Positions 53,815 through 62,328 of a DNA stretch of 64,000 bases are shown here, piece after piece. Source of the DNA: a bacterium (GTDB taxonomy: Bacteria; Planctomycetota; Planctomycetia; Planctomycetales; Planctomycetaceae); assembly GCA_016125225.1 (NCBI GenBank), contig WGME01000010.1, positions 62,001 through 126,000 on the forward strand, written 5' to 3'. The stretch's first letter is position 1. Every line of letters begins with the position of its first letter. Position numbers and translations under genes: made by a program. The notes below the pieces were generated by a model. It was not told the origin of the DNA and searched no databases. It worked only from the letters and a program-made list of their open reading frames with translations.

Positions 53815-54864
53815 CTATTCATGCCAGCCGTGAGCGTCGCGGACCTGAATCATCGAAGCGAGGATGTTGTTCCACGTCTTCGGATCGCTCATGACGGCAT
53901 TCGGGAACATGCAGCCATCCCAGCAGATGTGACGGTATCGGCGGTGTGGCGTGCCTTCATCCCGCAGCCAGTAACCCGCCCGACGGACGACATCGAGCTT
54001 GCCGTTCGGGTCATTCACCAGGCAGTGCTTGCCGGTTTTGTCATGCGTGCCCGACCCATGCACCGTGGCATCGTTCTGGGCGACGTGGAAGTCGATCGTC
54101 CACGGCCGCAGTTCGTCGGTGAGTTGGGTGTAGGCGGCATCGAGCGCGGCTTCATCTTTCCAGTTGAAGTCGGCCGGTAACAGAGCATGTTCCGGAGCGT
54201 TATAGCCCATGAGGTAGAGCAGCGTATGAGCCATGTCGGCCTGAAAGCCAAGCGTTTCCGGACGACCGACGCGTTCCAGCAGATCGACCATGGTCACCCA
54301 CGACTGCATGCCGCCCCAGCAAATTTCCCCTTCCGCCGCGAGCATTTCGCCATAGTCTTCGGCGATGTCGCAGGCCATGTCGAACGTCTCGGCGATGCGG
54401 CGTTGATTGCCAATCGGATCTTTGGCCCAATCGCTGACCCCGCAAGCCGAGTCAATCCGGACCACGCCATACGGGCGGATGCCGATCTCGCGCAGAATAC
54501 GGGCGATGCGGCAACCCTTCTGCACCTGAGCGAGGAAATTGTTGCGGCCTTCCTCTTCGTCCAAAGCGGGGCCACCACCCGTTGGCGGCCAGACCGGGGC
54601 GACCACCGAACCGATATTGAGATCGCGCGACGCCGCCTTGTCAGCAAGCTTCTTCAGATCATCTTCCGAGGCATCGATGCTGATGTGCGGATCGAACAGG
54701 AAGAGATCAAAACCGTCGAACTTCACGCCATCGACTTCGGCCTTCGCCGTGTGATCGAGCATGGTGTCGAGATCAATAAACGGCTCGGCCCCTTCGGACC
54801 CTTTGCCCACGACCCCCGGCCAGGCCGCGTTATGCAGTTTCGGATAGTTGTTACGTTTGGTCAT
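53815..54864 (-). CDS. Sugar phosphate isomerase/epimerase-like TIM-barrel protein
   Basis: 349 aa from the ATG at 54864, with AAGGA nine bases upstream. The longer frame to 54918 is coded by the cassette repeat and is not real. [53 protein letters not shown] and [11 protein letters not shown] show the acidic and histidine metal positions of xylose-isomerase-like (AP endonuclease family 2) proteins. It probably isomerises or epimerises a sugar in the cytoplasm; the substrate is unknown. It is last of a minus-strand unit with the cupin-like gene; a four-helix-bundle cassette sits between them. Confidence 0.82.
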
Positions 54865-54880
54865 GGATGCGAGTCCTTGA

Positions 54881-55359
54881 ATGTCGAATGAGGAAGGCCG
54901 AATGTCGAAAGAAAACATGCCAACTTGGTGGGCTGACTAGGAACCATTCTTACGATGTTTGCGATGAATTGCGGCGAAAATACGATTGAGTTCATTGGAT
55001 TCAGACCACAGAACCCGTGCTGCATCGCGGCAGTTGGGTTCCGCTGCGACAATCATCCGTAACCAATGCATGGTTTCGCGAGATTCCCGCTGGCAGAGGC
55101 TGATCCGATGAAAGAACTCCTTACGCGAACCTGAGTCATCAGCCTCTGAATAGTTGGCACCGATACTTGTAGCTGAGCGTACCAATTGAGAGATCAATGG
55201 CCTTGTGATCTCGTCTCGTAATATGGATTTGACGAACCGAATGACTTGCTCACCGAAGACTGCTGTCCGCTCAGAAAGGTCAAATCGTCGCTCCGCATGT
55301 TGACCTCCATCAGCCTGCGTTACTTCTTCTTTCGTCATTCGGGCTTCGTCATTCGACAT
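54881..55359 (-). mobile_element. Inverted-repeat-bounded segment carrying a four-helix-bundle gene (cassette 1)
   Basis: The 33-base ends (54881-54913 and 55327-55359) are inverted copies matching at 30 of 33 positions, and the 479-base segment contains one gene. The arms themselves contain GAATGTCGAA/GAATGACGAA-like internal repeats. The segment separates two codirectional metabolic genes. One arm supplies the first codons of the four-helix gene and the other ends just upstream of the isomerase ribosome site. Mobility is inferred, not shown. Confidence 0.6.
54937..55359 (-). CDS. Four-helix-bundle protein (S23 ribosomal-insert family-like), cassette 1
   Basis: 140 aa. RTAVFGEQVIRFVKSILRDEITRPLISQLVRSATSIGANYSEADDSGSRKEF is the NYxEAD subgroup of S23/four-helix-bundle proteins. 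CQRESRETMHWLRMI is the fourth helix. The first ~12 residues (MSNDEARMTKEE) are coded by the right repeat arm, so the native start might be the ATG at 55338. Relatives are found in 23S rRNA intervening sequences and as Avd-like accessory proteins of retroelements; no reverse transcriptase is nearby. The molecular role is unknown. Confidence 0.8.
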   Translation of the reverse strand: MSNDEARMTKEEVTQADGGQHAERRFDLSERTAVFGEQVIRFVKSILRDEITRPLISQLVRSATSIGANYSEADDSGSRKEFFHRISLCQRESRETMHWLRMIVAAEPNCRDAARVLWSESNELNRIFAAIHRKHRKNGS

Positions 55360-55366
55360 CGCACGA

Positions 55367-56590
55367 TTACTTCTTATACGCCCCCACTTCCGGAGCGTCC
55401 TTCTGTGCCTCGGGACCGAAGTATCGCAGGCCGACCAGCGGTTCGGTGCCGGTGTTTTCGAAGACCACGCCTTCCGCGGCGGCTTTGGCGGTGACGAAGA
55501 CTTCGTCCATGGTCATCTGGCCGAAACGGATCATCGCCGGGGTTTGCAGCTTGAGGCCATTGACGGTCCCTTCACCCTGCACGGTAATCCAGCCGTATGC
55601 ACCGCCATCCTTGATGGTGACCTTGGTGCCGGGGTTGATGGTCAGTTCCTTCGCGGTGAAGTCCTGGGCCTTCTTGATGCGGCCGTAGACGATCCACTTG
55701 TCGAAGAAGCCTTCCTTCTCGCTGCCACTGCAGATGATCGGTTCGAGGTAATGGCTGTCCTTGAAGTTCGGATCGACGTTGCCTTCCCAGTCGAGGGCAT
55801 CGACAAGGTAGGTGTTGTCGTTGTGCTTCTCGGCGGGGAAGTCTTTGGTGAGCAGCGACCGGGGCACCGCCCGGCCTTCCACCATCGACTGATACATACC
55901 GAAGACATCGCTACCCCACTGCGGTTCATAGGTGAGCAGCGAACCGGGAGCGTGCAGCACGCACGGCGGAATGAGCCAACCGGTGCCGACCTTCAGCCGG
56001 TAGGCCTTGGACAGGTCAAGAATGCCGTTGTCGCCATCGTTCCAGCGATCGAGACAGGCGATGACGTCTTCCTTCTTGGTGCCAGGTTCGAGGCCCATGA
56101 AGGTGTAGGGGAAGTTGTTGCCGACGTTGTTGAGTTGCGGCGGGAAGTAATAGCTTTCGGGCTTCCCTTCCTGCCCCACCAGCTTGGCCTGCTCGGCATT
56201 CTGGTGCATGTGATGCGGAATTGGGCCCATGTTATCGAAGAACTTCGAGTAAACCGGCCACTTGTGATATTTGTTCCAGATGTAGTCGCCGACGATTTCG
56301 GCACCCAACTCGGCGACCACGTCGCGCAGCAGGAACTTCTCGGACCCGGCGACGCAGTAGCTCAGGCCTTCGTCGTGGCTGCGGCCTTCGTTCGCGGCTT
56401 CCGTGGTGCTGGCAAACCAGCGTTCATCGATGCCGCCGCGGTGCGTGCCCAGGGCATAGTAATCGTGTGGGTGGAGCTTCAAGCGGCGTCCCGGTTGCAG
56501 GAACGACCGCGGCACCCACGTGGGAGCCAACCGCAACACACCCTTGCCCTCGGACAACGCCGCCGACGCCAACGACTTCACACTGGCCAT
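55367..56590 (-). CDS. Cupin-fold mannose-6-phosphate-isomerase-like protein
   Basis: 407 aa, cytosolic (no leader). PIPHHMHQNAEQAKLVGQEGKPESYYF is an RmlC/ManA-type metal site with clustered histidines and a following Glu. KVGTGWLIPPCVLHAPGSLLTYEPQWGSDVFGMYQ gives the second cupin strand set, with a further His. TVTIKDGG-like and TVQGEGTVNG elements mark the C-terminal cupin barrel. It may be a sugar isomerase acting with the TIM-barrel protein downstream; this pairing supports a carbohydrate pathway, but the substrate is unknown. It begins the minus-strand unit. Confidence 0.7.
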   Translation of the reverse strand: MASVKSLASAALSEGKGVLRLAPTWVPRSFLQPGRRLKLHPHDYYALGTHRGGIDERWFASTTEAANEGRSHDEGLSYCVAGSEKFLLRDVVAELGAEIVGDYIWNKYHKWPVYSKFFDNMGPIPHHMHQNAEQAKLVGQEGKPESYYFPPQLNNVGNNFPYTFMGLEPGTKKEDVIACLDRWNDGDNGILDLSKAYRLKVGTGWLIPPCVLHAPGSLLTYEPQWGSDVFGMYQSMVEGRAVPRSLLTKDFPAEKHNDNTYLVDALDWEGNVDPNFKDSHYLEPIICSGSEKEGFFDKWIVYGRIKKAQDFTAKELTINPGTKVTIKDGGAYGWITVQGEGTVNGLKLQTPAMIRFGQMTMDEVFVTAKAAAEGVVFENTGTEPLVGLRYFGPEAQKDAPEVGAYKK

Positions 56591-61846: not shown

Positions 61847-62307
61847 TTAGCGATTAGCCAAACCAAAATGCATGTTGTTCGCCCGTAGCTAAACGCTTAT
61901 GAAGAACTTTCGAGACTTGCAGATTTGGGATCGTTCCCATCAACTTACGCTGGCGATTTATCGCCTGACGCAGGAATTTCCGAAAACAGAAACCTATGGA
62001 CTCGTCAGTCAAATGCGTCGCTCTGCTTCATCCATTCCCACCAATATCGCAGAAGGTTGTGGAAGGAATACCGAGCGAGATTTTGCAAGGTTTCTCGATA
62101 ATGCTATGGGCTCTGCGTCGGAACTCGAATACCAACTCATCCTGACACGCGACCTGAAGTACATCTCGCTCGACATATTTGAAGTAACATTCGCTGAACT
62201 GACAGAAATCAAACGTATGCTGAATGCTTTTATGCAAAGGTTGAGGGCTGCTAACGAATAACAGTGATCTTTGAGTCGATTTGCCACCGCTAGCTGCTAA
62301 TCGCTAA
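61847..62307 (+). mobile_element. Inverted-repeat-bounded segment carrying a four-helix-bundle gene (cassette 2)
   Basis: TTAGCGATTAGC (61847-61858) and its exact complement GCTAATCGCTAA (62296-62307) bound a 461-base segment with one gene between two genes that are normally neighbours (DUF1592-type and DUF1552). The arms start 12 bases after one stop codon and end 21 bases before the next start. The size and codirectional insertion match cassette 1. No clear target duplication was seen. Mobility is inferred. Confidence 0.55.
61899..62261 (+). CDS. Four-helix-bundle protein (S23-like), cassette 2
   Basis: 120 aa. FRDLQIWDRSHQLTLAIYRLTQEFPKTETYGLVSQMRRSASSIPTNIAEGCGR is the NIAEG subgroup of S23/four-helix-bundle proteins. 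FARFLDNAMGSASELEYQLILTRDL is the conserved third and fourth helices. It is cytosolic with no leader, unlike the exported products on both sides, which supports its being an insertion in that operon. The role is unknown; homologues occur in rRNA intervening sequences and as Avd-like accessory factors. Confidence 0.88.
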   Translation: MKNFRDLQIWDRSHQLTLAIYRLTQEFPKTETYGLVSQMRRSASSIPTNIAEGCGRNTERDFARFLDNAMGSASELEYQLILTRDLKYISLDIFEVTFAELTEIKRMLNAFMQRLRAANE

Positions 62308-62328
62308 CAGCCATCAAGGAGCTTTCTC

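Follow-up and report, generated by a model that had tools for sequence, protein, structure and literature searches.

The 479-bp segment at positions 54881–55359 of the 64,000-nucleotide planctomycete stretch analysed here (the window) is, with a probability of about 70%, one copy of a widespread, tiny selfish element that is both REPIN-like and IVS-like and whose S23 protein recognises the element's own heptad arms. Its architecture, one S23-like gene enclosed by inverted arms made of 7-base repeats, is the general rule of the S23-like gene family. To our knowledge, this "four helix bundle" family, which occurs across the bacteria and for which structures have been solved (2gsc, 2rld), is without a known function; its near-universal tie to heptad arms that match each other offers a role that can be tested.

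The unit at 54881–55359 and its host operon

Two 33-nt arms, at 54881–54913 and 55327–55359, match in inverted orientation at 30 of 33 positions (91% complementary) with a spacing of 413 nt. The right-arm sequence, with up to 3 mismatches allowed, is found at 2 sites in the 64-kb window, namely the two arms themselves, and at 0 in 100 shuffles. Between the arms lies a single S23-like ORF (54937–55359, minus strand, 140 aa), which scores 44.6 bits against PF05635 (cut-off 33.8) and 62.9 bits against TIGR02436 (cut-off 24) and so exceeds both curated cut-offs. The ATG and first 11 codons of this gene lie inside the right arm. The initial annotation, made from the letters of the window, had described the arms and their 30/33 match, the enclosure of exactly one S23-like gene and the contribution of the right arm to its first codons, and all of these are borne out. 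The arms carry an internal 14-base repeat that corresponds to two heptads. The features of this unit, its neighbours and a second unit in the window are as follows.

55367..56590, minus strand: upstream host gene, cupin-type, 407 aa; no Pfam or NCBIfam match
55327..55359, minus strand: 5' terminal arm, gene-strand sequence ATGTCGAATGACGAAGCCCGAATGACGAAAGAA; two heptad repeats; gives the start codon of the S23-like gene
54937..55359, minus strand: S23-like four-helix-bundle gene, 140 aa; PF05635 / TIGR02436; ANYSEAD variant of the NIAEG motif; structure relative 2rld
54881..54913, plus strand: 3' terminal arm; inverted copy of the 5' arm, 30/33
54881..55359, minus strand: whole unit, 479 bp; arm–arm terminal stem in the RNA fold
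53815..54864, minus strand: downstream host gene, xylose-isomerase-like TIM barrel; PF01261
61846..61860, plus strand: 5' arm of the second unit, short and weak, AATTAGCGATTAGCC, heptad TTAGCGA; score 12, under the survey threshold of 15
61899..62261, plus strand: second S23-like gene, between two codirectional genes; joined flanks contiguous (bare site) in genomes G020 and G024
62294..62313, minus strand: 3' arm of the second unit, short and weak, GCTGCTAATCGCTAACAGCC

The stop codon of the cupin-type gene is followed by 7 bases and then by the unit, and the unit in turn by 16 bases (54865–54880; 17 had been given originally) and the isomerase ATG. Both flanking genes are on the minus strand, and the segment does split a codirectional cupin–isomerase pair, as was first proposed. 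In the predicted fold of the unit RNA the two arms form a terminal stem (z = -3.84). No transposase, nuclease or recombinase signature was found in the unit, PF05635 being the sole domain that it encodes. The isomerase frame is open upstream through the left arm (window 54865–54918), and annotation tools may consequently call an over-long isomerase with arm-encoded residues.

The source genome (6.35 Mb in 42 contigs) has three S23-like genes: this one, the one at 61899–62261, and one on another contig (L002). The second window unit has arms of merely 12 bases (TTAGCGATTAGC) and the L002 gene has inverted arms of other sequence (GGTCGATGGTTGA...); a 7-base period is what the arm pairs of all three share. 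The initial annotation had suggested looking for arm copies around S23-like genes at other loci. Gene-less copies of the 54881–55359 arms are present elsewhere in the source genome (L006, L007). The arm pattern of the unit gives 18 matches in the source genome, 91 in G003, 58 in G010 and 132 in G028, and none in four S23-less genomes. At L007 (1382–1569) the gene-less heptad palindrome is nested in a RAYT-type REP palindrome. The gene-less heptad element at L006 (1448–1480) starts within the last codons of a prephenate-dehydrogenase-like gene, so that the arm encodes the C-terminus of that protein.

Inverted arms accompany S23-like genes in general

For a family survey, 92 S23-like genes were gathered from genomes of the same taxonomic family, of which 89 loci were usable, and each was given an arm score, for which the 240 bases on one side of the gene were compared with the 240 bases on the other and the best inverted match was taken. 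The median score was 21, versus 10 in shifted intervals or mismatched flank pairs, and scores of at least 16 were reached at 84% of the loci versus 0 of 176 shifted intervals and 3% of mismatched flank pairs. A cross-phylum scan with one genome per species brought in another 80 loci, which span about 20 phyla and include one from an archaeon; among the 76 of these genes that were scored, 89.5% had a score of at least 15, versus about 4% in both controls. Taken over the one planctomycete family and the roughly 20 phyla, inverted arms surround 89% of 165 S23-like genes. Copies on cyanobacterial plasmids had arms in all 8 cases examined, and full units measure about 430–500 bp. The idea that any small intercistronic gene has such arms was rejected, since two control families of small genes from the same genomes had none (DUF433, 0/28; bS16, 0/27).

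Anatomy of the arms

The arms are heptad arrays. Identity within an arm is 0.61–0.63 at a lag of 7 and 0.58–0.61 at a lag of 14; most other lags give 0.21–0.30, with 0.37 at a lag of 8 in the cross-phylum set. The best lag is 7 in 71 of 77 family arms and in 46 of 65 cross-phylum arms; in a further 18 of these 65 it is 8. Arm pairs are inverted in 89% and direct in 13% of cases, and on the gene strand they have a strong polarity (AGT:ACT 565:58; GGG:CCC 372:6). The repeated word differs from gene to gene, for example AATGACG, AGTTGAG, GGCTAAG, TAGTGGG, GGATTCA, GTGGTCA and GGGAGTA. Shared words alone are disfavoured as the explanation of the arm match, since the order of the heptads matters: in 94% of 82 loci the two arms of a unit are more complementary as they stand than they are on average after permutation of their heptads. 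Likewise, in-register arm identity is 0.78, versus 0.67 after a slide of one heptad. The number of heptads varies among close copies (L282 and L283 differ by 14 bases). The locus L196 is an exception in that its two ACAATATACATT-type arms appear to be direct, and its close relatives L164 and L178 are unlike it.

Genomic position of the units

Units sit between the stop codon of one gene and the start codon of the next. Where the flanking genes are concordant in direction, the S23 gene runs the same way in 80 cases and the opposite way in 10 (p = 1e-14), and in codirectional cases no more than 10 nt separate the upstream stop codon from the start of the unit in 56% of the family set and 75% of the cross-phylum set (medians -4 and -2). 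The sites include atpG–atpD, cysD–cysN, microcompartment operons (gene names assigned by reading of the sequence) and a conjugation operon. In five genera (L043, L050, L056, L078 and L100) a unit lies between atpG and atpD; the arm words of these units differ and their S23 proteins are merely about 50–68% identical. On plasmid pANA02 of Anabaena sp. 90 (L286), an S23 unit with GGTGACA heptad arms separates cas6 from cas4 in a type I-D CRISPR operon. The 23S rRNA IVP has been listed among CRISPR-linked domains (PMC10910872), and this cas6–cas4 unit may explain that listing of the S23 family. Around 147 units there was no excess of direct flank repeats of the kind expected of a target-site duplication. 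Nor was there an excess of outer inverted repeats, that is, of an outer hairpin, around 147 full units, and targeting of hairpin tips was rejected on this ground.

Signs of mobility

Filled, bare and miniature alleles were identified by joined-flank searches and reading of the sites in one genus and its nearest relatives. At the cysD–cysN junction, G001 has a full unit, where G002 has a gene-less miniature of 102 bases that uses the same words. At the acetate-kinase junction, the full unit of G001 corresponds to a miniature with different words in G000 and to no element in G003; the L083 site, occupied in G001, is bare in G000. Of two closely related Nostoc plasmids, one has an additional gene-less heptad insertion of 270 bases, which lies about 500 bases away from an S23 unit built of the same words. 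In addition, homology limited to arm, gene and arm was found across unrelated contexts (79–87% among L282, L284 and L293; 80–82% among L164, L178 and L196), and such element-only homology links plasmids and chromosomes.

Outside S23 neighbourhoods, 449 kb of sequence contained 27 gene-less heptad pairs, versus 0–3 pairs for periods 5, 6 and 8–12, and no such pairs in the same 449 kb after shuffling. Compared with the S23 arms of other loci, those of the same locus are the better match for the words of gene-less pairs (6 of 14 in the top 5%; combined p about 1e-5). Samples of 400 kb gave 7 and 10 gene-less pairs in the S23-bearing genomes G003 and G015, and 0, 0 and 3 in the S23-less genomes G020, G054 and G064. 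One of the gene-less pairs of G003 has arms nearly identical to those of an S23 unit in the same genome (L123). In G028, 27 arm-pattern pairs are gene-less and one, spanning 437 bases, is an S23 unit. All four gene-less copies inspected in G028 (L416, L422, L428 and L434) are nested in RAYT-type REP palindromes, so that RAYTs may have spread them and the copy number in this genome is confounded. Such nested palindromes, in G028 and at L007, are possibly composite elements spread by RAYTs.

Some S23 genes at the same site are each other's nearest relatives, and part of the distribution thus reflects vertical inheritance. For the class as a whole, the arms, the filled, miniature and bare alleles, the element-only homology and the gene-less copies all favour the original suggestion of an insertion unit rather than a native operon gene.

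The cupin–isomerase locus in relatives

The initial annotation had also proposed a search of this locus in relatives for an empty site, and a bare gap of 84 bp was seen at L022. A gene-less miniature occupies the gap at L024 and probably at L031. Genes of other kinds are found there as well: a RAYT-like gene between REP palindromes at L013, L016 and L021 (named by reading of the sequence), and Uma2/DUF433/DUF5615-like genes at L011 and L034 (also read from the sequence; DUF433 in G001 is a Pfam match). Thus, one small gap is used by two kinds of small elements, the RAYT-like one and the S23 unit. No S23 gene was found in the gap in those relatives whose gap was readable, and the case of the same gene in the same place without arms in all relatives was looked for and not found.

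In G008 and G028, the nearest S23 relatives of this copy (66–68% identical; L024 and L032, with AATGAC/AATGTC words) are found immediately 3' of the same isomerase. Two further S23 genes, at L109 and L112, stand beside the isomerase in other genomes. This copy may therefore be an old resident that has shifted locally and not a recent arrival. Long residence near the isomerase with at least one local shift is the simplest account, with recurrent insertion as the alternative. For this particular locus the insertion reading is supported by the S23-free gaps, with a reservation over the position of the nearest relatives beside the same isomerase, and movement here is something that we infer.

The S23 protein and a proposed mechanism

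Six residues (Q35, R38, S42, N46, E49 and E72) are 97–100% conserved in 147 proteins from about 20 phyla, a degree of constraint that points to an active or binding site rather than to decay; by their spacing, Q35, R38, S42, N46 and E49 fall on one helix face. Covariation between protein and arms over all loci is weak but significant (Mantel r 0.10–0.22). Agreement between protein and word is clearer in one clade, where L003, L024, L032 and L122 all have AATGAC/AATGTC words (AATG enrichment near the clade, p = 8e-5). The clade-level agreement and the weak global covariation fit recognition of the arms by the S23 protein. Because of the constraint on these residues, the agreement between protein and word, and an arm stem like that of the Coxiella IVS (below), our preferred reading is a selfish element with an S23 protein specific to that element.

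In the mechanism that we propose, the element would consist of an S23-like gene between two inverted heptad arms and would lodge at the stop/start junctions of operons. The S23-like protein would most likely be the element's own factor, binding the arms through their heptad words in the form of a DNA hairpin or an RNA stem, and would, with host enzymes or through an activity of its own, cause the copying or moving of anything between matching arms; we infer the binding, the movement and its chemistry alike. Miniatures that lack the gene would, on this view, be non-autonomous and depend on the protein in trans, much as REPINs depend on RAYT transposases. Units within operons, being codirectional, would depend on host transcription, and their arms could pair in mRNA as the ends of the 23S rRNA IVS do. 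The element might be tolerated in operons owing to this codirectionality and possibly to being cut out of the mRNA.

Alternative explanations

The arms might act at the level of RNA only, pairing in the transcript into a stem that RNase III cuts, whereby the S23 message is removed from the operon mRNA; they would then be kept for processing or autoregulation, and the units would be inherited mostly vertically, with rare spread by general recombination. The terminal stem that closes the predicted RNA, the in-register complementarity that is retained despite changes of word, the codirectionality with operons and the RNase III excision of the Coxiella IVS (PMC4990558) are all compatible with this. 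However, it leaves unexplained the gene-less copies away from S23 genes, the insertion polymorphisms, the element-only homology between plasmids and chromosomes and the paucity of gene-less pairs in S23-less genomes, and we regard it as unlikely. A long-standing membership of the S23-like gene in the cupin–isomerase operon, with the arms as regulatory palindromes of that operon, appears quite improbable. It draws on the nearest S23 relatives (66–68%), which follow that isomerase directly in G008 and G028, and on the S23 genes beside the isomerase of other relatives at L109 and L112, but the position differs (before versus after the isomerase), and the gap has no S23 gene in the other relatives read. 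Moreover, S23 genes of unrelated operons (atp, cys, cas, tra) have arms of the same kind, and the source genome contains gene-less copies of the present arms at other places.

We consider it very improbable that units and miniatures are moved by RAYT transposases, with the heptad arms as degenerate REP-like sequences and S23 as cargo. Although RAYT-like genes occupy the same cupin–isomerase gap in three relatives and the gene-less copies of G028 and L007 lie inside REP palindromes, the 147 full units have no outer hairpin, the heptad arms have no constant REP core, and the arms track S23 in about 20 phyla. Chance, or a low-complexity artefact of intergenic DNA, might be suspected from the simple, tandem-like nature of the arms; given the controls at 0/55, the shifted intervals at 0–4%, the shuffles at 0 and the specificity for period 7, its probability is negligible.

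Comparison with known systems

The 23S rRNA IVS of Coxiella burnetii has an S23-family ORF, a length of about 430 nt and 28-bp inverted ends that form a stem (Warrier et al. 2016, PMC4990558). It also has tandem heptameric repeats (GACAGAT) at its 5' end, the number of which varies among strains, and its excision by RNase III has been proven by experiment (PMC4990558). The present units share the S23 ORF, the stem-forming inverted ends and the heptameric repeats with the IVS. In contrast, the IVS sits in rRNA helices, whereas the present units sit at stop/start junctions of protein operons in about 20 phyla, with gene-less miniatures and many words, and the heptads of the IVS were treated as a local feature (PMC4990558). 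The 54881–55359 unit itself lies between two protein genes and outside a 23S rRNA gene, and thus lacks the location that defines an IVS.

The REP/REPIN and RAYT (TnpA-REP) system likewise consists of short intergenic palindromes with more gene-less than gene-bearing copies, and RAYT-like genes share a gap with S23 units. The dispersed gene-less palindromic derivatives that characterise REPINs are present here (L006, L007 and the 18 arm matches) and in the class at large. However, RAYT has an HUH/Y1 tyrosine transposase and a fixed GTAG-type hairpin; S23 units are without this enzyme and their arms are gene-specific iterations of heptads. Of the features of insertion sequences and MITEs, the unit has terminal inverted repeats, and neither a target-site duplication nor a recognised transposase was found. 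Because the units miss a defining feature of each of the IVS, RAYT and IS classes, we regard them as relatives of the IVS that stand on their own and have REPIN-like behaviour. The accessory protein bAvd of diversity-generating retroelements belongs to the same four-helix-bundle superfamily as the S23-like proteins. An identity as a DGR Avd protein was rejected: this gene has no DivGenRetAVD match, the second gene gives 30 bits, far under the cut-off of 80, and there is no adjacent reverse transcriptase.

Dispersed heptameric repeats have been described as G-quadruplex repeats in Xanthomonas (GGGAATC) and Nostoc (GGGGAYT), with 70–75 convergent inverted pairs per Xanthomonas genome (Rehm et al. 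2015, PMC4692102). Like the present arms they are 7-base and dispersed; they were not linked to a mobile element there and S23 is unmentioned. Xanthomonas has S23 (PDB 2gsc), and, compared by description, the Xanthomonas and Nostoc repeats are possibly gene-less arms of the S23 family. The TAACTGA heptamers of Beggiatoaceae and cyanobacteria are tandem, lie next to start codons and have a patchy phylogeny and no known mechanism (PMC4679880). These are mostly direct, in contrast to the inverted S23 arms, and the S23 arm at L158 has the word TCAGTTA, the reverse complement of TAACTGA.

IVS ORFs, REP/RAYT and heptameric repeats are each known. A search of the open literature, with subscription journals outside its scope, gave no earlier general account of S23 genes bounded by in-register inverted heptad arms outside rRNA, of their gene-less derivatives and of a joint origin; on this basis the rule outside rRNA, the gene-less derivatives and the unifying of scattered observations appear to be new. 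Carried further, S23-like proteins might be unrecognised mobility factors with no kinship to known transposases, which would recognise element-specific heptad hairpins and bring short units to the stop/start junctions of bacterial operons, with the IVS and the repeats of Xanthomonas, cyanobacteria and Beggiatoaceae as branches of one family. We offer this wider proposal tentatively, as possible and somewhat short of probable. If S23 does move the units, it would be a transposition protein unrelated to known ones, and if the whole proposal is true, the 23S rRNA IVS and the heptameric repeats of Xanthomonas, cyanobacteria and Beggiatoaceae would have one origin.
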